A stretch of DNA of 64,000 nt, taken from the NCBI RefSeq assembly GCF_003173715.1, contig NZ_CP029550.1, forward strand, positions 5,782,001 to 5,846,000, written 5' to 3'. The stretch is from Methylobacterium durans (lineage in GTDB: Bacteria; Pseudomonadota; Alphaproteobacteria; Rhizobiales; Beijerinckiaceae). A program made the translations under genes and the position numbers. Below the pieces are notes generated by a model, which ran no database searches, was not told where the DNA came from, and saw only the letters and a list, made by a program, of their open reading frames with translations. Numbering within the stretch: the first letter of the stretch is position 1; each line of letters begins with the position of its first letter. Below, piece by piece: positions 54,429 to 64,000 of the stretch.

Positions 54429-56152
54429 CACGGCAGCACCGCGTAGGCCGTGAGGTCGAGCCGCTTGCCGCCGTTGATGTTGAAGCCCGAGACCTGCCCC
54501 ACGGGGGTCGGCAGCGGCGCGGCGACGGGGACGGGGACGGCGGCCGCGAGGTCGGCCGCGAAGCGCGCCTCGACGAGGACGAGGCGGCAGCCGCCGCCCC
54601 GCAGGAAGTCGAGAGCCTGGGATCCGGAATCGAGCATGGTCAGGTCGGTGCCCATCAGGAAGACGAGGCTCGGCTCGCGGTAGCCGAGGCTCGCGACCTG
54701 CGGGCTCGGGCAGGGCAGCGCGTCGCGGATCGCGGCGAGCCGGCCCGAGACCTTCAGCGCCGGCAGCGCGCGCTGGGCAAGGCCGAGTACGGAAGGCGTC
54801 AGGAGGCAGGCCGACAGGATCGCGATCACGCAGGCGCGCTCGGCCGCCCCGCGGGCGAAGGCCGCGACCGCGAGCGCCGCCAGCGCGCAGGCGGCGATGA
54901 GGAGCGGGAGCGCCGCGAGCGGCAGGCTGCGGTCGAGCTTCCAGCCGGCGGCGAGGAGCCCGAGGGTCAGGCCGACCGGGATCAGGAGCAGGAGGAACGC
55001 GACCGTCGCGCGCGCCCCGCGCCGGGCGGGGTCGAGGGCGCCGGACTGGAGCGCCAGCGCGGTCAGGATCGCGACCGCCGGCATCAGGGGCAGCACGTAG
55101 TGCGGCAGCTTCGTCGGCACCGCCTCGAAGACGAGCCAGGAGGGCACGATCCAGGCGAGCAGGAAGGCGACCGCATCGGTGCCCCGCGCGCGCCACGCAA
55201 AGGGTAAGCTCAGCGCCGCGAACGCGGCACCAGGCCAGAAGGTCGCGAAGAAGGCGATCAGGTAGGCGCCCGGCGGTCCCCAGTGCTTCTCCTTGGCGGT
55301 GCCGACCTTGCCCAGCATGTCCTTGCCCACCGCCTCCCCGAAGAAGGCGCCGCCGCTCTTCCAGGCGATGGCGAGGAACCAGGGCGCGACGAGGAGCAGG
55401 GTGAGGGCGAGGCCGGGGCCGGGGCGGAGCGCGAGCAGCCAGCGCCCGGAGCGGGCGCGGACCGAGAGGACGAGGGCGGCAAGGCCGACGAACATCGGCA
55501 CCATCGGCCCCTTGACGAGGATGCCCAGCGTCAGGCCGAGCCAGAAGGCGAGGAAGACGGCGCGGCCGAGGGCGCCCTGCCCCCGTTGCAGCCAGGCGCG
55601 GGCCAGCGCCCCGAAGGCGGCGGTGGCGGTCGCCGTGAGCACCGCGTCGGTCTTGGCGAGGTGGGCCTCGGCCGCGAGCATCAGGCAGGCGCCGAAGAGC
55701 GCGGCGGCGAGGAGGGCGCCCCGGCGCGTGAGGAAGGCGAGCGCCGCCCAGTAGGCGAGCAGCACGGAGGCCGCGGCGCCCAGCAGCGAGGGCAGGCGGT
55801 AGAGGCCGATCGCGGTGCGGGCCTCCGGCACGCCGAGCGCCTCGCCCGCGGCGACGGAGGCCGCCTGCAGCCAGTAGATGCCGACCGGCTTCTTGTGGCG
55901 CGCCTCCGCCTGGAAGCGGATGTCGACGAGGTCGCCCGTCTCCAGCATCTGCTTCGTGGCCTGGGCGAAGCGGGGCTCGTCCCGGTCCATCGGCTGCAGG
56001 GAGGTCAGCCCCGGCAGGAAGCAGGCGAGGCAGAGGGCGAGGAGCAGGGCGCAGGCCCGGGCGTGGCTGCGCTCCCCGAAGGCGAGGATTCGGTCGGGCA
56101 GCGGCGCGGAGAGCGCGCCTCGGGCGACGCGGCCGGCGGAGAGGCTCGTCAT
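54428..56152 (-). CDS. Family 39 (ArnT-like) glycosyltransferase
   Basis: 574 aa. Integral membrane GT-C enzyme: the catalytic loop FLPGLTSLQPMDRDEPRFAQATKQML contains the D-E pair typical of ArnT; ARHKKPVGIYWLQAAS follows. ~12 helices to residue ~450, then a periplasmic domain with GSQALDFLRGGGC and a C-terminal beta part. First gene of a minus-strand operon (GT39-GT2-LAB_N). By family it transfers a sugar from a polyprenyl-phosphate donor to an envelope acceptor, most likely lipid A. Confidence 0.88.
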   Translation of the reverse strand: MTSLSAGRVARGALSAPLPDRILAFGERSHARACALLLALCLACFLPGLTSLQPMDRDEPRFAQATKQMLETGDLVDIRFQAEARHKKPVGIYWLQAASVAAGEALGVPEARTAIGLYRLPSLLGAAASVLLAYWAALAFLTRRGALLAAALFGACLMLAAEAHLAKTDAVLTATATAAFGALARAWLQRGQGALGRAVFLAFWLGLTLGILVKGPMVPMFVGLAALVLSVRARSGRWLLALRPGPGLALTLLLVAPWFLAIAWKSGGAFFGEAVGKDMLGKVGTAKEKHWGPPGAYLIAFFATFWPGAAFAALSLPFAWRARGTDAVAFLLAWIVPSWLVFEAVPTKLPHYVLPLMPAVAILTALALQSGALDPARRGARATVAFLLLLIPVGLTLGLLAAGWKLDRSLPLAALPLLIAACALAALAVAAFARGAAERACVIAILSACLLTPSVLGLAQRALPALKVSGRLAAIRDALPCPSPQVASLGYREPSLVFLMGTDLTMLDSGSQALDFLRGGGCRLVLVEARFAADLAAAVPVPVAAPLPTPVGQVSGFNINGGKRLDLTAYAVLP

Positions 56153-56341
56153 GCGCGTCTCGTGGTGAGCGTCCCGTCACGGGCTCGCGGCGGGCTCAAC
56201 GGCGTCGGCCGGCCGGGCAGACCGCCCGCGCCCGGACCGGCGGCCGTGTCGGTGATCCGGCCCGGAATGTCAAATGACCCGGCTTGCCGGCCAAGCGAGC
56301 CCGTTCGAGAGTGCCGGCTGCCCGCCGCAGGACAGATTTCC

Positions 56342-57037
56342 ATGACGCTCCGCATCGGCCTCCTCGTCTTCCCCGGGGTGCAGCAACTCGACCTCACCGC
56401 CCCCTACGAGGTGTTCGCCGCCCTGCCCGGGGCGGAGATGCACCTCGTCGCGGCCGATCTCGCGCCCGTGCGCAGCACCACCGGCCTCGTGCTCACCCCG
56501 ACGACCCGGCTCGCCGACTGCCCCGACCTCGACGTGGTCTGCGTGCCGGGCGGCAGCGGCGTGAACGCCCTGATGCGGGACGCGACCGCCCTCGCCTTCC
56601 TGCGCCGTCAGGCGGGGACGGCGCGCCACCTCACCTCCGTCTGCACCGGCGCACTGGTGCTCGGCGCGGCGGGGCTGCTCCGCGGTCGCCGGGCGACGAC
56701 GCACTGGGCAGCGCACGACCTCCTGCCGGCCTTCGGGGCGATCCCCGTGCGCGAGCGCGTGGTGCGGGACGGCGCGCTCCTGACCGGCGGCGGCGTCACG
56801 GCGGGGATCGATTTCGCCCTGGCGCTCGCGGCGGAGATCGCGGGCGAGACGGCGGCGCACGGGATCCAGCTCGCCCTCGAATACGCCCCCGCCCCGCCCT
56901 TCGCGGCGGGCCACCCGGACGAGGCCCCGGAGGCGGCGCGCGCGGCGGCGCGGGAGCGCCTGGCACCGAGCCGGCGCGAGCGGGAGCGGATCGTGGCCGA
57001 GATCACGGGCGCGGAGGTTCCGCGGGCCGGCTGGTGA
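56342..57037 (+). CDS. DJ-1/PfpI-family protein (isonitrile hydratase-like)
   Basis: 231 aa from ATG 56342. Class I amidotransferase-like fold: LRIGLLVFPGVQQLDLTAPYEVFAAL, PDLDVVCVPGGSGVNALM, and the nucleophile elbow SVCTGALVLGAAGLLRGRRATTHW with Cys 101. The D-L-T-A-P-Y-E-V-F opening is typical of the InhA/isonitrile hydratase subgroup. The C-terminal ~40 residues add an Arg/Glu-rich helix. No downstream AraC domain. Just before the acyl-CoA synthetase, 73-bp gap. Confidence 0.85.
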   Translation: MTLRIGLLVFPGVQQLDLTAPYEVFAALPGAEMHLVAADLAPVRSTTGLVLTPTTRLADCPDLDVVCVPGGSGVNALMRDATALAFLRRQAGTARHLTSVCTGALVLGAAGLLRGRRATTHWAAHDLLPAFGAIPVRERVVRDGALLTGGGVTAGIDFALALAAEIAGETAAHGIQLALEYAPAPPFAAGHPDEAPEAARAAARERLAPSRRERERIVAEITGAEVPRAGW

Positions 57038-57110
57038 GCGGTGGCTCTCATCGCACGCATGATTGATCGGGCGCGGACGCGCGGTATCGTGCTGGCAGGA
57101 GAGAAACGCC

Positions 57111-58772
57111 ATGACCGCCGACACGACGAACGCCGACAAGCCGGGCGCCGACACGATCTACGACCGCGACCTCGACCGGAACCCGGCCAATTTCCAGCCT
57201 CTGACTCCGCTGAGCTACCTCGACCGGGCCGCGCGCGTCTTCCCCGACCGCGTGGCGGTGATCCACGGGCCGCTGCGGCGCAGCTACGCCGATCTCTACG
57301 CCCGCAGCCGCCGCCTCGCCTCGGCGCTCAAGGCGCGGGGCATCGGGCGCGGCGACACCGTGGCGGTGCTCCTCTCGAACACGCCCGAGATGATCGAGTG
57401 CCATTACGGGGTGCCGATGACCGGGGCGGTGCTCAACACCCTCAACACCCGCCTCGATGCGGGGGCGCTGGCCTTCTGCCTCGACCACGGCGAGGCCAGG
57501 ATCTTCATCACCGACCGCGAATTCTCGAAGGTTGCGGGACCGGCGCTGGAGAAGGCGGGCGTGAAGCCCCTCGTGATCGACGTGGACGATCCCGAATACG
57601 GGGGCGAGGGCACCGCGCTGGGCGGCATCGGCTACGAGGATTTCCTCGCGGGCGGCGATCCCGAGCACGACTGGACCATGCCGGGCGACGAGTGGGACGC
57701 GATCTCGCTCAACTACACCTCGGGCACCACCGGCGATCCGAAGGGCGTGGTCTACCACCACCGCGGCGCAGCGCTGCTCTCCCTCGGCAACGTCATCACG
57801 GGGGCCATGTACGGGCATCCCGTCTATCTCTGGACGCTGCCGATGTTCCACTGCAACGGCTGGTGCTTTCCCTGGACGCTCTCGGTGGTGGCCGGCACCC
57901 ATGTCTGCCTGCGGCAGGTGCGGGCGGGGGCCATGTACCGGGCGCTCGCCGAGCACGACGTCACGCATCTCTGCGGCGCGCCGATCGTGATGCAGCTCCT
58001 CCTCAACGCGCCGGATTCCGACAAGCGTCCCCTGCCCCGCCGGGTCTCCTTCATGACGGCCGCCGCGCCCCCGCCGCAGGCCGTGCTCGCCGCGATGGGC
58101 GAGGCGGGCTTCGACGTGACCCACCTCTACGGGCTGACCGAGACCTACGGCCCGGCGGTCGTGAACGCGTGGCACGAGGCGTGGGACGACCTGCCCGCGG
58201 ACGAGCGCGCCGCCAAGATGGCGCGCCAGGGCGTGCGCTACCCCGTCCTCGAAGGCTTCGACGTGCGCGACCCCGACACGATGGACTCGGTGCCCGCCGA
58301 CGGCGAGACGATGGGCGAGGCGATGTTCCGCGGCAACGTGGTGATGCGCGGCTACCTCAAGAACCCGAAGGCGACGCAGGCCGCCTTCGCGGGCGGCTGG
58401 TTCCGCTCCGGCGACCTCGGGGTGAAGCACCCGGACGGCTACATCCAGCTCAAGGACCGCTCGAAGGACATCATCATCTCAGGGGGCGAGAACATCTCCT
58501 CGATCGAGGTGGAGGACGCGCTCTTCAAGCACCCGGCGGTGGCCGCCGCCGCGGTCGTCGCCAAGCCCGACGAGAAATGGGGCGAGACCCCGGTCGCCTT
58601 CGTGGAGCTGAAGGAGGGCAAGACGGTCGAGCCCGACGCCCTCATCGCGTGGTGCCGCGACCGCCTCGCCCCCTACAAGCTGCCGCGCCAGATCGTGTTC
58701 GGCGACCTGCCGAAGACCTCCACCGGCAAGGTGCAGAAATACGTCCTGCGCGAGCGCGCGAAGGAGGGCTGA
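57111..58772 (+). CDS. Acyl-CoA synthetase (AMP-binding, medium/long-chain)
   Basis: 553 aa from ATG 57111 (AGGAG 8 nt upstream). ANL-superfamily enzyme: P-loop YTSGTTGDPKGVVYHH, A5 YGLTETYG, A8 GWFRSGDLGVKHPDGYIQLKDRSKDIIISGGENIS and the C-terminal catalytic Lys in PKTSTGKVQKY. It activates a fatty or other carboxylic acid to acyl-AMP then acyl-CoA. The opening YDRDLDRNPANFQPLTPLSYL is characteristic of the AlkK-like medium-chain group. Soluble. Confidence 0.9.
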   Translation: MTADTTNADKPGADTIYDRDLDRNPANFQPLTPLSYLDRAARVFPDRVAVIHGPLRRSYADLYARSRRLASALKARGIGRGDTVAVLLSNTPEMIECHYGVPMTGAVLNTLNTRLDAGALAFCLDHGEARIFITDREFSKVAGPALEKAGVKPLVIDVDDPEYGGEGTALGGIGYEDFLAGGDPEHDWTMPGDEWDAISLNYTSGTTGDPKGVVYHHRGAALLSLGNVITGAMYGHPVYLWTLPMFHCNGWCFPWTLSVVAGTHVCLRQVRAGAMYRALAEHDVTHLCGAPIVMQLLLNAPDSDKRPLPRRVSFMTAAAPPPQAVLAAMGEAGFDVTHLYGLTETYGPAVVNAWHEAWDDLPADERAAKMARQGVRYPVLEGFDVRDPDTMDSVPADGETMGEAMFRGNVVMRGYLKNPKATQAAFAGGWFRSGDLGVKHPDGYIQLKDRSKDIIISGGENISSIEVEDALFKHPAVAAAAVVAKPDEKWGETPVAFVELKEGKTVEPDALIAWCRDRLAPYKLPRQIVFGDLPKTSTGKVQKYVLRERAKEG

Positions 58773-58801
58773 GGCCGGCAGGGCGAGGACGGATCCGCCG
58801 C

Positions 58802-59164
58802 TCAGCCGATCCCGAGGCGGCGGGCGGCCGCGATGATGGCGGAGGGGCGATAGGGCTTCATCACGAGGAGGCTGTCGCGCACCTGCCGGGGCTCCTCGGC
58901 GCTGTAGCCCGTGACGTAGATCACCGGCAGGTCCGGCTGCAGGGCACGGGCCTGCTCGGCCACGCCCCAGCCGTCGAGGGCGCCGGGCAGGCGGATATCG
59001 GTGAACAGAAGGTCGATCGGGGTGCGCGCGGCGAGGATCGTCGCCGCCGCCTCGCCCGTGAGCGCCGTCACGACCTCGAAGCCCGCCTCCTCGAGCTCGG
59101 CCGCGACGACCTCGATCAGCATCGTCTCGTCCTCCACGACGAGGATCCTCGGCCGGTTCTTCAT
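58802..59164 (-). CDS. Single-domain response regulator
   Basis: 120 aa, only a REC domain: acidic pair E11/D12 in ILVVEDET, phospho-acceptor Asp 56 in LLFTDIRLPG, Thr in VIYVTGYS, and Lys in VMKPYRP. No output domain, so it acts by protein-protein contact or as a phosphate sink. Encoded directly downstream (80 bp) of the ethylene-receptor-like kinase on the same strand, its natural partner. ATG 59164. Confidence 0.92.
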   Translation of the reverse strand: MKNRPRILVVEDETMLIEVVAAELEEAGFEVVTALTGEAAATILAARTPIDLLFTDIRLPGALDGWGVAEQARALQPDLPVIYVTGYSAEEPRQVRDSLLVMKPYRPSAIIAAARRLGIG

Positions 59165-59244
59165 GCGCGCCTCCCCTCAGGGCCTCGTGACCGTGCGCCC
59201 CGGCCCGGACGGCGTCCGCGCCGGGGCGGCTCGACGCGGATTTG

Positions 59245-60528
59245 TCAGGCGCCCGCCCAGGACAGGCCCGCCGGCAGGGCGTCCGACCCGGAGGGCGGCT
59301 CGCCCGCCTGCGCCGCGGCGGGCGCCGGTGCCGCGCGGGCAGGGAAGAGCAGCCGCACGGTGGTGCCCCCCTGCGGCCCGATCACGATGACGGCGCTGCC
59401 GCCCGATTGCTGGGCGAAGCCGAAGACTTGGCTCAGGCCGAGCCCCGTGCCCCGGCCGAGGGGCTTCGTCGTGAAGAATGGCTCGAAGGCGCGGGCGGCG
59501 ACCTCCGGCGACATGCCGGCGCCGGTGTCCCGCACCTCCACGACGAGCCCCTTCTCCGCCGGTCCGCCGGCAAGTCCCGTCCCCTCCTCCGGCCGCAGGG
59601 CCCGCGTCGCCAGGGTGAGGACGCCGCCCTTCGGCATCGCGTCGCGCGCGTTGACGGCGAGGTTGAGGATCGCGTTCTCGAACTGGTTCGGGTCGATGGG
59701 GACCTGCGGCAGGTCCAGCGCGAGCTCCGTCTGCAGGCGGATCCGCGAGCCGATGGTGCCGCGCAGGAGTTCGGCGAAGGCACCGATCAGCCCGTTCACG
59801 TCGCTCATCACGGGCGAGAGCGGCTGCTTGCGGGCAAACGCCAGGAGCTTGTGGGTGACGGCCGCCGCCCGCTCGGCGCCCGTCATCGCATCCCGCACGG
59901 GCGACAGCAGTGGGCTGTCGGGCGCGAGGCGCCGCTCCACCCGCTCGAGATTGGCCAGCACCACGTTGAGCAGGTTGTTGAAATCGTGCGCGACGCCCCC
60001 CGTCAGCTGCCCGATCGCCTCCATCTTCTGCGACTGGCGCAGCAGCGCCTCGGTGCGCCGCTGCTCGGCGGTGGCCTGCTCCAGCGCGGCGAGCGCCCGG
60101 TCGCGCTCCAAGATGCGGGCGTGAAGCTCCTCGTTGGCGCGGCGAAGCTGCGTCGGCGAGGGCAGCGCCAGCGCTTGCGGCAGGAGCTTCCAGAGGGCGA
60201 TGGCGGTGGCGACCGAGGCCAGCGCGGTCACCGCCTTGACCAGGGCCTCGACCCCGTAATCGGGCACCCACAGGGTCCAGATCGCGAAGAGGTGGGTCGC
60301 CCCGCAGGCGGTGATGAAGACCGCGAACGACCAGAACATCCAGCCGAACACGATGTCGGGGCGGCGGGACACGAAGGTGGCGAGCGCGCCGGGAATCGAG
60401 AAATAGGCGAGCGCGATCAGCGTGTCGGCGACCACGTGCGTCCAGATCAGCTCGGGCCGCCACAGGAGGCAGATGCCGTGGGGCGCGAGGCTGTCGACCT
60501 CCCAGAGCTTGCGCAGGAACTCGAACAT
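59245..60528 (-). CDS. Histidine kinase with ethylene-receptor-like membrane sensor
   Basis: 427 aa from ATG 60528. N-terminal membrane domain (~15-115) matches the plant ETR1 ethylene-binding domain: PHGICLLWRPELIW, HVVADTLIALAYFSIP, FAVFITACGATHLFAIW, then a coiled linker. Residues equivalent to ETR1 Asp25, Tyr32, Cys65 and His69 (Cu(I) ligands) are Asp35, Tyr42, Cys75 and His79. Kinase: GGVAHDFNNLLN (His 181) is an H-box of the HWE/HisKA_2-like 'HDFNN' group, then N-box NLAVNARDAMP, DTGAGMS, GRGTGLGLS. Together with the downstream regulator it forms a predicted ethylene- (or related olefin/copper-) responsive pathway. Confidence 0.9.
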   Translation of the reverse strand: MFEFLRKLWEVDSLAPHGICLLWRPELIWTHVVADTLIALAYFSIPGALATFVSRRPDIVFGWMFWSFAVFITACGATHLFAIWTLWVPDYGVEALVKAVTALASVATAIALWKLLPQALALPSPTQLRRANEELHARILERDRALAALEQATAEQRRTEALLRQSQKMEAIGQLTGGVAHDFNNLLNVVLANLERVERRLAPDSPLLSPVRDAMTGAERAAAVTHKLLAFARKQPLSPVMSDVNGLIGAFAELLRGTIGSRIRLQTELALDLPQVPIDPNQFENAILNLAVNARDAMPKGGVLTLATRALRPEEGTGLAGGPAEKGLVVEVRDTGAGMSPEVAARAFEPFFTTKPLGRGTGLGLSQVFGFAQQSGGSAVIVIGPQGGTTVRLLFPARAAPAPAAAQAGEPPSGSDALPAGLSWAGA

Positions 60529-60880
60529 GAGACCCCCCATGTCGGTGAAGAGCGGCGCTCAAGAATCTGAACGTTCATTGGGCCAATCCGGAAGCAGAAG
60601 GCAATGCTTTCCTCGCATCGCAGGCTCATCCCCGCTCGCTCGGACGAATCAGAACTGCCGACGTTCTGGCGCTGCATCGACGGCCGGTGGCGAATACGCT
60701 CGCCGTGCGCCGGAAGGACGTCCGCAGGCCCGGATCGGGCGGCGCCCGTGCGGGGACGCGGCGGCGGCGATGCGACTGCAGGTGGTGGCGTTGTCCGTCC
60801 CGGCATGGCACAAGCTTGGCCTTTCCCCCTGCCGCCCGGCACGGGGCCCCTGCCCTCGCGAGTGAGACTGAAGACGCCCG
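60529..60880. other. Intergenic region, kinase and coiled-coil gene divergent
   Basis: 352 bp. AT-richer near 60560-60620, where the kinase promoter should lie. ORFs on both strands have shadow composition. No gene seen. Confidence 0.45.
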
Positions 60881-61192
60881 ATGAGTGCCCGCACGGACAC
60901 GCTGCTCGCCCTCCTCTCCCGCGTGGTCGACCACGTCCGCGCAGCGAATGCCCGGGCCGAGCGGGCGGAGGCAGCCGCGCGCGAGGGTGAGTCGCGGCTC
61001 GCCGTGACGGAGGCGACGGTGCGCCGGCTGCGGGAGGAACTCGGCGCGCAGGCGCGGGCCTGCGCGGCCGCCGAAGCCCGCGCAGTCGAGGCGAATCTGC
61101 GCATCTGCCAGGCCGCCGAGGCCCTCGGCTTCGCGGCGGCGGGCGAGGCCGGTGCGCCGCCGGCGGCCGAGGCGCCCGCGCGCCTGCACTGA
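60881..61192 (+). CDS. Coiled-coil hypothetical protein (103 aa)
   Basis: ATG 60881. One long Ala/Arg/Glu helix (ARAERAEAAAREGESRLAVTEATVRRLREELGAQ) with heptad-like spacing, then an Ala/Pro-rich tail. Likely a coiled-coil oligomer; no family recognised and no strong ribosome site. Confidence 0.55.
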   Translation: MSARTDTLLALLSRVVDHVRAANARAERAEAAAREGESRLAVTEATVRRLREELGAQARACAAAEARAVEANLRICQAAEALGFAAAGEAGAPPAAEAPARLH

Positions 61193-61538
61193 CGGCCGCC
61201 CCGGGCGCATCGGGGTTTAAGCCTTTATTCCCCTGGCGCCGGCCCGGACGGCCGGTGTTTCCTGCCTGCCGGGACCCGCGCGGGAGTCGCCGGCCGGCGC
61301 GGTTTTCGGGACCGGCGGTGCGGACGGGGCGACCTCGCACGCCCGCACCGCCGGCCTTCCCGCCGCTCGGGCGGGCCGGCCTTTGGGATGCCTCTACGGG
61401 ACGCCCCTCCAAGACGCCCCTCGCGCAGCCCCTAGGCCCGCCGGGCCCGAGCCTCTATAAGCCTCCGCCGACAGGCACCATCCCGACCCCCCGGGCGCTC
61501 CTCGGCGGCGCGGGCTCGCGGAGACCCTCGAAGACCCC
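61193..61538. other. Intergenic region before the LPS-type glycosyltransferase
   Basis: 346 bp of GC-rich DNA; includes one TTTATTCCCC (61224-61233) like the motif near the RepA gene. No supportable gene. Confidence 0.45.
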
Positions 61539-62330
61539 ATGGACGCGCCCACGCAGCCGGACCGCGCGCTACCGGTCGCCGTCTCCTGCACGATCATCGC
61601 CCAGAACGAGGCCGACCGGATCGTGCGCTGCATCGAGAGCGTGAAGGGCATCGCGCGCGAGATCGTCGTGATCGATTCGGGCAGCACGGACGAGACGGTG
61701 GCGCTCGCCGAGCGGCACGGCGCCGTCTGCCATTTCAACCCCTGGACGGGCTACGGCCAGCAGAAGCGCTTCGCTGAGGACAAGGCCCGCCACGATTGGG
61801 TGCTCAACCTTGACGCCGACGAGTGGCTGCCCGAGCCCGTGCGCGCCGAGCTGATCGACCTCCTGTCGCGGCCGATCCCGCCGGAGATCCACGGCTTCGC
61901 CTTCACGATCAGCCATGTCTATCCCGGGCACGCGCGCCCGCGCCCGCTCGCCGATTACCACACCTATGTCCGGCTCTACGACAAGACCCGCTGCCGCTTC
62001 CCGGAGAGCAGCGTCTTCGACGAGATCAAGCTCGCGCCGGAGCACCGGGGGCGCGTCCGGGCGCCGGTCTACCACCAGTCGATCCGCTCGCTCGGTCACC
62101 TGATCGCGAAGAACAAGGCCTATTTCCGCCTGCAGGCGCGGGAGGTCCGCAAGCCGCGCCTGCCGACGCTGCTCAGGATCTTCGTCGAGCCGGTCACGAC
62201 CTTCCTGAAATACTATCTCGTGCGGCGGCACATCACCGGCGGCGTCTACGGCTTCCTCGTCGCCTCGACCATCGCGGGCCTGCGCACCTACCGCCTCGCC
62301 CTGTTCCTGAAGGGCCGCCGGGAACCCTGA
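61539..62330 (+). CDS. Family 2 glycosyltransferase (LPS core, WaaE/KdtX-like)
   Basis: 263 aa from ATG 61539. GT-A fold: VSCTIIAQNEADRIVRCIESVKGIAREIVVIDSGSTDET, then W-TGYGQQKRFAEDKARHDWVLNLDADEWLPEP, the block that defines the WaaE/KdtX group with its DxD (LDADE). HRGRVRAPVYHQSIRSLGHLI and a hydrophobic C-terminal helix follow. Transfers a sugar (probably glucose or heptose) to LPS inner core. Confidence 0.85.
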   Translation: MDAPTQPDRALPVAVSCTIIAQNEADRIVRCIESVKGIAREIVVIDSGSTDETVALAERHGAVCHFNPWTGYGQQKRFAEDKARHDWVLNLDADEWLPEPVRAELIDLLSRPIPPEIHGFAFTISHVYPGHARPRPLADYHTYVRLYDKTRCRFPESSVFDEIKLAPEHRGRVRAPVYHQSIRSLGHLIAKNKAYFRLQAREVRKPRLPTLLRIFVEPVTTFLKYYLVRRHITGGVYGFLVASTIAGLRTYRLALFLKGRREP

Positions 62331-62334
62331 TCCC

Positions 62335-62907
62335 TTATTCCTCGGCCGGCGCGTAGACCGCCTCGCCGAGCCGCCGGACCGGGCCGCCGGCCCCGGAGCG
62401 CTTCCAGAGGCGCGTGTTGAGGGCCGCGACCGGATCCTGCCCCGGCAGGATGAAGCCCCGGCGGGCGATCCCCTCCAGGATCTCGCTCGCGTGGAGCGGG
62501 CGCCCCGCCTCCTCCAGCACCGCCAGGGACGCGGCGATCAGAGCGCGACCGTAGCGGCGGGCCGCGACCGGATCCTCCTCGAAGGCGATCGGCAGGGGGG
62601 CCGGAGGGCCCGCTGGCGCGGGTGCCGGCGATGGGCCGCTGCGCGAGGCCGGTCCGGGCTCCGCGGCCGGACCCGCCGGCTCGCGGAGGTCGGCCTCCGG
62701 CCCCACCGCGTCATCCCGGTCGCGGGACGGCGCATCCGCCGGGCCGGCCGGCTCCGCGAGACCGCCCCCGTCGCCGGGATCCGAGCCGCGCAGGCGGCGG
62801 CCGAGCTCGAGATAGAGCGCGTGGTCGGCGATCAGCCGGTCGAGGGCCTCGCGCCGACGCCGCAACGCCGCGAGCCGCTCCTCGATCTCGGCCTCCGAAG
62901 GGAACAT
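62335..62907 (-). CDS. HARE-HTH-like winged-helix protein
   Basis: 190 aa from ATG 62907. N-terminal coiled coil (EEIEERLAALRRRREALDRLI), a long Pro/Ala-rich linker (~50-120), and a C-terminal winged helix AASLAVLEEAGRPLHASEILEGIARRGFILPG...LNTRLWKRSGAGGPVRRLGEAVYAP, matching the HARE-HTH pattern (helix, 'plh..eI...i...G', strand, wing). HARE-HTH domains occur in RNA-polymerase delta subunit, restriction enzymes and chromatin proteins. Encoded next to RepA, hence perhaps a replication or partition regulator (inference). Confidence 0.65.
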   Translation of the reverse strand: MFPSEAEIEERLAALRRRREALDRLIADHALYLELGRRLRGSDPGDGGGLAEPAGPADAPSRDRDDAVGPEADLREPAGPAAEPGPASRSGPSPAPAPAGPPAPLPIAFEEDPVAARRYGRALIAASLAVLEEAGRPLHASEILEGIARRGFILPGQDPVAALNTRLWKRSGAGGPVRRLGEAVYAPAEE

Positions 62908-62914
62908 GCGGCGC

Positions 62915-63089
62915 TCCTATTCCGTCCACTCGCAGGGAATAGAAGACGAGAGGCCGCGCAGCAAGTGTTCCGTTCCGCTTATTCCCTTCATTGACGAGAC
63001 AGCCGACTCGGGTCGGTCTGTCGCGAGACGCGCATCAAGGGAATTCACTAAGCATCTATTGGGAAGATAAAATTCCTTTTATTCCCTAA
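62915..63089. promoter_or_regulatory. AGGGAATAA-type motifs and dyad between RepA and HARE-HTH genes
   Basis: AT-rich stretch with repeated AGGGAAT(A/T) boxes in both orientations: near 62934 (AGGGAATAG), 62979-62986 (TTATTCCC), 63039 (AGGGAATTC) and 63079-63087 (TTATTCCCT), plus a partial CTATTCC near 62918. A dyad GACAGCCGAC / GTCGG-T-CTGTC sits at 62998-63022. Position downstream of the rep gene and upstream of the HTH gene allows iterons, an origin or operators. Confidence 0.5.
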
Positions 63090-64000
63090 GCTCGTTTCGC
63101 CTGTGGCTTCGATGCGCGCGGGGGCACGAGCAGCGCGCTCGTATCGGCGGGTTGGAGCGTCATGCCGTTGTCGTCAAGGGCGATCGGCAGCCGCGGGAAC
63201 ACCTCGCAGAGATGGGCGAGATCGGCCTTGAAGGCCTGACGGAAGCTGCGGATGCTGGCGTTCTCGGCCCCGAACTGGCCGTGCAGGTTGTCCCAGGTCA
63301 GGCGCAGGGGCCGGTGCAGGGCGCGCAGCCGGTAGCCGACCCAGAACAGCAGGTCGAGCTTGCGCGCAGAGCCGGAGAAGGCCCGGGCCGCCCGGATATC
63401 GACGGGCAGGGCGTGCCGGATCAGGTTGTCGTAGAAATCCTGGTGGAACTCGACCGTCTTCGACCAGGCGAGGCCCTCCGGGCCCGCACCGCGCCAGAGG
63501 TCGAGGCTGCGGAAGGGGGGCACGTTCAGGGTACGGGCCCGCGCCTCCCCGTCCCAGAGGCCGATCTGCATGGTGCAAGCGGCGAGCCGGTTGAGCTGCT
63601 CCTTGAACTGGCGGATCGTGCCCCGCTCGCCCCCCGTCACGGCGAACCCCATCTCGCGCATGAAGGCGGAGAGCGATTGCGCCACCTCGATGGTGGGGCT
63701 GCGCTGGCGCACGGCTTCGGTGCAGAGGTGCAGGAGCACGAGGCGGGCCTTCGGGCCGTAGGGGAGGCCCTGGAGCTCCATCTCGCCCGTCAGCGGGCTC
63801 TTGAGGCGGCCGGCCACGAGGCTCAGCGAGTTGCGGCCGTAGGTGCGCACGAATTCCCGCACCGGCCCGGGATCCCGGTAGGGCAGGCCGCACAAAGCCA
63901 GCACCGAGTGGATGTGCTGCAAGTTCTCCGGCGCCGTCGGCTCGTTCTCGATCACCTCGCGGATCGCGTCGCGGCGGCGCGCGTCGCGGCCGAGGCGGGC
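63086..64000 (-). CDS. RepA_C-type replication initiator (5' end outside window)
   Basis: The frame is open from base 64000 to TAG 63086 (304 residues); GTG 63955 is internal to coding-looking sequence (GRDARRRDAIREVIENEP), so the true start is beyond the window. Matches alphaproteobacterial RepA (RepA_C, PF04796-type): EFVRTYGRNSLSLVAGRLKSPLTGEMELQGLPYGPKARLVLLHLCTEA, then IEVAQSLSAFMREMGFAVTGGERGTIRQFKEQLNRLAAC and FHQDFYDNLIRHALPVDIRAARAFSGSARKLDLLFWVGYRL. Such proteins initiate plasmid replication; chromosomal copies are also known. No parAB seen in window. Confidence 0.85.
   Translation of the reverse strand, partial: ARLGRDARRRDAIREVIENEPTAPENLQHIHSVLALCGLPYRDPGPVREFVRTYGRNSLSLVAGRLKSPLTGEMELQGLPYGPKARLVLLHLCTEAVRQRSPTIEVAQSLSAFMREMGFAVTGGERGTIRQFKEQLNRLAACTMQIGLWDGEARARTLNVPPFRSLDLWRGAGPEGLAWSKTVEFHQDFYDNLIRHALPVDIRAARAFSGSARKLDLLFWVGYRLRALHRPLRLTWDNLHGQFGAENASIRSFRQAFKADLAHLCEVFPRLPIALDDNGMTLQPADTSALLVPPRASKPQAKRA

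Follow-up and report, generated by a model that had tools for sequence, protein, structure and literature searches.

Can Methylobacterium durans perceive ethylene, and if so, along which route would the gas reach the signaling machinery of the cell? This question is raised by a two-gene locus within a 64,000-nucleotide stretch of its genome (NZ_CP029550.1, positions 5,782,001 to 5,846,000; hereafter the window, meaning the whole stretch analyzed), where a first-pass annotation had pointed to a kinase resembling the ethylene receptors of plants. We consider it likely that, in the two-component system encoded here, the sensor in the membrane is an ethylene receptor that depends on copper. The features of the kinase gene, with positions counted from the first letter of the window, are as follows.

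59245..60528, minus strand: ethylene-receptor-like sensor histidine kinase, 427 aa (coordinates include the stop codon)
60163..60453, minus strand: predicted ethylene-binding domain ETR1_N, residues 26-122 (Pfam PF25487.1, 131 bits)
60403..60426, minus strand: helix 1 motif DTLIALAY with D35 and Y42 (ETR1 D25 and, presumably, Y32), from sequence and alignments
60292..60315, minus strand: helix 2 motif ITACGATH with I72, C75, and H79 (ETR1 I62, C65, and H69), from sequence and alignments
60235..60237, minus strand: K98 codon; this residue may form a salt bridge with D35 (D/K co-variation)
60052..60156, minus strand: modeled helix 125-159, leading from TM3 to the phospho-acceptor domain with no PAS/GAF between (AlphaFold2 model)
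59986..59988, minus strand: putative phospho-acceptor H181 in HDFNN (HisKA 20.6 bits, under the Pfam cut-off of 26.9)
59335..59694, minus strand: HATPase_c catalytic domain, residues 279-398 (58.8 bits)

The kinase frame is intact over its 427 residues. A second in-frame ATG lies at 60540, four codons upstream of the start at 60528, and a start near the latter position is present in genus relatives as well (the start picked being the last ATG or GTG before the domain). The ETR1_N profile matches over its full length, with 131.2 bits for the whole kinase against a curated Pfam cut-off of 27 and 134.6 bits when residues 1-130 are the sole query, a score far above chance. When these 130 residues were searched against Pfam with max_evalue 10, the sole other match had E = 0.09 and fell under its own cut-off; a check for another family with three transmembrane helices thus leaves ETR1_N as the sole Pfam family over cut-off in the sensor region. 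The initial description of the protein as an ethylene-receptor-like sensor kinase is upheld by these scores, and its coordinates, strand, frame, and residue numbers were correct.

The kinase core comprises HATPase_c and H181, which is the His of the HDFNN box to which the first-pass annotation had already joined the sensor, with HisKA remaining sub-threshold. Between sensor and kinase no PAS or GAF match was obtained (Pfam, E up to 0.001), the GAF domain of the plant type included. In NCBIfam, the kinase half is nearest to PRK13557 (244 bits, cut-off 631) and CckA (232 bits), but with a cut-off of 1000 the latter score does not support assignment as a CckA equivalog. Among PDB sequences, the top matches of the kinase are 5idj, a histidine kinase, and 5idm, CckA; a sensor profile built from the 11-sequence alignment A1, chosen by eye, had no PDB match up to E = 10.

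Hydropathy marks three hydrophobic stretches in the sensor. A structure prediction of the sensor end, proposed earlier as a check, also yields three long helices: AlphaFold2, run for residues 1-160 from three aligned sequences and hence at low depth, places helices at 25-55, 62-87, 91-121, and 125-159 (mean pLDDT 77.7, pTM 0.49), residues 1-20 scoring about pLDDT 48. Three transmembrane helices are thus predicted by both approaches. In the model, helix 1 holds D35 and Y42, helix 2 holds C75 and H79, and helix 3 spans K98 to P117.

The set of residues needed for copper-mediated ethylene binding had been given as Asp35, Tyr42, Cys75, and His79. These four are correct, but the fuller set comprises all seven ETR1 ethylene-binding residues, which the alignment locates at D35, Y42, I45, P46, I72, C75, and H79. 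K98 we take to be the counterpart of ETR1 K91, and T101, S105, and P117 those of T94, S98, and P110, in our own register of the two proteins. By analogy with ETR1, C75 and H79 are presumed to be the Cu(I) ligands. The number of residues needed for ethylene binding in ETR1 is given as seven (PMC11819568, PMC6682694), and its copper site is described as Asp25, Cys65, and His69 (PMC12643061; see also the description in PMC13012798). In PMC6586836, I35, P36, and I62 are called essential, C65 and H69 are named too, and T94, S98, and P110 are tied to signal transmission.

An Asp-Lys salt bridge has also been proposed for ETR1 (PMC13012798), and the co-variation of D35 and K98 fits such a bridge. Across 48 sequences, 38 combine the Asp with Lys or Arg, none has the Asp without Lys or Arg, four have Lys or Arg without the Asp, and six have neither (two of these ten rows without Asp, L047 and L070, being gaps). 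The set consists of the 38 sequences of the wider set described below, window included, 6 further close genus copies selected manually, and four of the scored divergent copies (L043-L045 and L047), L046 being omitted as its residues are the same as those of L045. The co-variation is one-directional, since Lys or Arg is retained in the four sequences without Asp, and it reflects few events because the Asp-to-His cases fall mostly in a single lineage.

How widely is this site kept? ETR1_N occurs at 48 places in 45 of 111 genus genomes. A close copy is present in 42 genomes; among the other 69, ETR1_N gave no hit of any kind in 66. All seven residues are complete in 42/42 close copies and in none of the five divergent copies scored (L043-L047, with L045 and L046 sharing the same residues; a sixth, L048, was unscored). 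The frames of the close copies measure 413-453 aa in 40 of 42, the exceptions being L014 (327 aa) and L018 (272 aa). Distances between the kinases track those of rpoB (Mantel r = 0.90, reached in 0 of 2000 permutations; 37 of the 42 copies used), from which inheritance looks mainly vertical. Three of the divergent copies, namely L043, L045, and L046 (genomes G029, G049, and G050), are degenerate ETR1_N proteins with another phospho-acceptor box, SHEIR; L043 is without the Tyr and Pro, and L045 and L046 are without the Asp, Tyr, and His. Judged by these residues, they are possible ethylene-blind relatives.

As the close copies are mutually similar, the wider set carries more weight for the conservation of the site. 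It was assembled from 39 loci, 37 of which matched (L073 and L075 did not) and 8 of these 37 being IMG/VR contigs. With the window included, 25 of 38 sequences have all seven residues, and when the 97 columns are ordered by conservation, the seven of the site take ranks from 2nd to 16th (Mann-Whitney p = 9e-5, counting related sequences separately). Such conservation is evidence of a preserved site and not of the identity of its ligand. In drawn samples, ETR1_N was found in 52 of 248 family genomes and 28 of 385 class genomes, and the domain also occurs on cyanobacterial plasmids. Among the best 80 of 592 stretches in a contig scan with the whole protein, the sensor was present only in L108 and L140.

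Several variants were seen along the way. In L077 (genome G694), Gly naturally replaces the copper cysteine and the other six residues are kept; L065 of the same genome has all seven. A search with alignment A1 showed ETR1_N-like domains on IMG/VR contigs catalogued as viral (L267-L274), with His replacing the copper-site Asp and Val replacing the Lys in L269-L272; in phage records the ETR1_N domain was absent. L054 (142 aa) and L058 (153 aa) are open frames with the sensor domain alone and no kinase. Compact forms of the receptor without PAS or GAF, like that of the window, also exist in L067 and L069. The genome of the window has six Cu-ATPase matches over cut-off, and 13 of 14 control genomes have one too. 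It further holds three PQQ alcohol dehydrogenase matches over cut-off, against none in the 14 controls. At window positions 63086-63955 (minus strand) lies a gene for a replication protein of the plasmid RepA type (74.9 bits to RepA_C), although the replicon was assembled as a single contig of 6.79 Mb. Of 106 plasmid records with matches to the right part of the window, 7 are from Methylobacterium, and two of these head the ranking, at 79% identity over 6% of it, by way of an acyl-CoA synthetase gene that is widespread.

The second component and the surroundings of the pair add three further features.

58802..59164, minus strand: one-domain response regulator, 120 aa, acceptor D56 plus T85 and K103 (motif, by eye; Response_reg 57.3 bits)
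59196..59228, no strand: G+C-rich inverted repeat in the 80-nt kinase-regulator gap, its arms 16 nt long with 94% complementarity (sequence)
60601-60621, minus strand: terminator-like hairpin, T-rich in its tail, lying before the kinase start (one found, 0.6 expected by chance, in a scan of 58600-61600)

The regulator had been noted as adjoining the kinase, and it does so 80 bases downstream, as a receiver with nothing attached (Pfam, Response_reg cut-off 30.2). The arrangement is that of a split pair of the AzoEtr1 kind, namely a kinase with an adjacent one-domain regulator and no output domain. Of the 42 genus loci, 41 have the regulator next to the kinase on its downstream side, and the remaining one (L018) stops at a contig end; the acceptor motif of the regulator is intact in 41/41. 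Moreover, kinase and regulator are the only genes common to all 13 loci with longer flanks (L031-L042 and the window, reaching about 4 kb, with L034 starting near a contig end); a third cluster present in 13/13 consists of antisense frames over these same two genes. Judging from this gene neighborhood, kinase and adjacent regulator very likely form a working unit. The scan of 58600-61600 reported no promoter-like site anywhere in that range and no terminator-like site at the inverted repeat, and Rfam gave no match over 55000-64000. Regulator expression could be tuned by the repeat.

We also compared the sensor with ACC deaminase. Scoring the enzyme as TIGR01274 over cut-off and the sensor as close copy present or absent, we found ACC deaminase in 13 of 42 carriers versus 58 of 69 non-carriers, a negative association (Fisher p = 3.4e-8, 111 genus genomes). 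A dependent-evolution fit on an rpoB tree gave LR 10.8 with 4 d.f. (p = 0.029; 109 genomes, 21 starts), a value reached under simulated independence in 1 of 81 usable runs (139 run, of which 58 were discarded for a failed fit or for too few carriers of a trait). The tree reflects one gene, with G077 and G078 lacking an rpoB match and G036, G073, G093, and G100 entering as fragments. The association thus weakly survives the tree model and, being post hoc, is a lead; a few clades may drive it, and niche could explain it.

Full-length ACC deaminase matches in the genus fall into two score groups, at about 566-593 and 208-242 bits, a pattern that would fit acdS and D-cysteine desulfhydrase; both genes are the subject of a 2018 Methylobacterium paper cited in PMC10452086. 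The genome of the window itself has a split ACC deaminase/D-cysteine desulfhydrase-like gene (L276 811-2868, i.e., G000:C1 783810-785867, with matches at 783819-784412 and 785947-786357), and the 457-aa frame between its halves is transposase-like by eye.

Put together, the system is probably ethylene-binding, as far as its sequence can tell, and could operate as follows. The kinase would dimerize in the cell membrane, each monomer holding Cu(I) on helix 2 through C75 and H79, aided by D35 of helix 1. Ethylene dissolving into the membrane would bind the copper, and the resulting change would be relayed via a D35-K98 salt bridge to helix 3, through the helix that follows, and into the phospho-acceptor domain, where autophosphorylation of H181 would be altered. 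If ETR1 and the bacterial receptors are a guide, ethylene would most likely lower kinase activity. Phosphate would pass from H181 to D56 of the regulator, which, having no DNA-binding part, would act by protein contact or hand the phosphate on in the style of CpdR and CckA. We infer that the gas being read may be plant ethylene, and the role may lie in adjusting attachment or metabolism on plant surfaces, by analogy with Azospirillum; this last step is the weakest.

A bolder version of this scheme would treat the protein as a minimal receptor, in which a copper sensor is joined by a helix straight to a CckA-type kinase, with neither PAS nor GAF between them. Through it, ethylene would enter a CckA/CpdR-like phosphorelay in Methylobacterium, so that a gas made by plants would influence the cell cycle or the surface behavior of bacteria living on them. 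Lineages would choose between sensing and lowering ethylene, in keeping with the tendency of receptor carriers to lack ACC deaminase. We regard it as rather unlikely. If true, it would offer a very small system for solving transmembrane ethylene signaling structurally.

The ligand is where the main reading can be challenged first. The sensor could be a copper-binding module reused for another input, be it Cu(I) itself, the redox state, or some other small ligand that is gaseous or unsaturated (e.g., CO or an alkene). The seven residues do not encode ligand identity, many of the lineages that carry the domain have no evident link to plants (the class genomes and cyanobacterial plasmids mentioned above), and the Cys-to-Gly (L077) and Asp-to-His (L269-L272) variants indicate that the fold can persist without the standard site. 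Nevertheless, the site is standard in the window and in every close genus copy, and AzoEtr1 and SynEtr1, which bind ethylene, reportedly share the seven residues (PMC11819568, PMC6682694), so that we hold such a reuse to be unlikely. That the domain has become a vestigial membrane anchor with no sensing left is highly improbable: the degenerate copies L043-L047 and the short kinase frames of the close copies L014 and L018 tell us that decay happens in the genus, but the 42 close copies all retain the seven residues, 40 of them keep frames of 413-453 aa, and the regulator is kept in 41.

The output can be questioned as well. The sensor may bind ethylene while the adjacent regulator is not its partner, the signal leaving through another regulator or a shared CckA-type phosphorelay. 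CckA-type kinases can feed a shared relay, and the kinase is nearest to the PRK13557/CckA models; the regulator has no output domain, and the two genes stand 80 nt apart, with the G+C-rich inverted repeat in between. We find this improbable, given that the regulator adjoins the kinase in all genus loci but L018, cut short by its contig end, and that in Bradyrhizobium a receiver is fused to the kinase. A copper-dependent ethylene receptor signaling through its neighboring regulator hence remains our preferred reading.

What the locus adds to the picture of bacterial ethylene receptors is a compact form without PAS or GAF, its spread through a genus, a relative in which the parts are fused, the pairing pattern of D35 and K98, and a tendency not to occur together with ACC deaminase. 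Since 42 of 111 genus genomes have a complete site and the rest do not, the genus lends itself to a natural comparison for the role of ethylene sensing in plant-associated bacteria, one that this tendency sharpens. At the same time, a 427-aa receptor free of PAS and GAF domains is a simple test case.

In the open literature searched, the papers that mention Methylobacterium together with an ethylene receptor had neither term in title or abstract; among those listed in a second search, Methylobacterium occurred at most in a cited title. An earlier listing of the genus is possible. Lacey and Binder in 2016 are said to have reported bacterial carriers. The first-pass statement that ethylene sensors are known from plants and cyanobacteria was too narrow, for AzoEtr1 of Azospirillum brasilense binds ethylene (PMC11819568), which makes the window system less new than that statement implied. 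According to the same source, direct microbial evidence of a specific receptor before this 2025 Azospirillum paper came only from Synechocystis and one fungus.

Among the known systems, Arabidopsis ETR1 combines a three-helix Cu(I)/ethylene domain with a histidine kinase core, both matched in the window as predicted from sequence, and its D25, I35, P36, I62, C65, H69, T94, S98, and P110 have counterparts there (numbering of PMC6586836 and PMC12643061). On the other hand, ETR1 carries a GAF domain and its own receiver, whereas the window protein has no GAF and a receiver that is a separate protein; in plants, moreover, ETR1 signals mostly without kinase activity. SynEtr1 of Synechocystis PCC 6803, a receptor kinase for ethylene from a bacterium, likewise has a regulator that is a protein apart (PMC6682694, PMC11819568), but differs in having an added light-sensing cyanobacteriochrome and in that the regulator in question, Slr1213, switches on the transcription of a small RNA. 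The CckA/PRK13557-like kinases are alike in the kinase half, yet the window protein has a different sensor domain and no receiver of its own. In Bradyrhizobium sp. AT1 (L140), identity to the window amounts to 55% over 157 aa in the sensor, 44% over 268 in the kinase, and 37% over 115 in the receiver; there, a single fused protein runs sensor-PAS-kinase-receiver, whereas the window pair is split and without PAS.

The nearest functional precedent comes from Azospirillum brasilense Sp7, whose plasmid ABSP7_p1 (L275) encodes a 525-aa kinase followed by a 135-aa regulator overlapping the kinase end, lengths and order that agree with the published AzoEtr1/AzoRR-etr1 (PMC11819568). As in the window, an N-terminal ethylene-binding domain is combined with a C-terminal histidine kinase and an adjacent one-domain regulator. 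The AzoEtr1 sensor end is 52% identical to that of the window over 145 aa, with 7/7 site residues, and its kinase and the AzoRR-etr1 regulator are 28% and 30% identical to their window counterparts. AzoEtr1 differs, however, in the PAS between sensor and kinase, which the 427-aa window protein lacks, and its gene overlaps that of the regulator, whereas the window genes are 80 nt apart. In yeast, the AzoEtr1 domain showed saturable ethylene binding, while gene-disrupted cells showed little or none; AzoEtr1 also affects root colonization, and its authors predict autophosphorylation inhibited by ethylene (PMC11819568). The family to which the window sensor belongs is thus already shown to work in another alphaproteobacterium.
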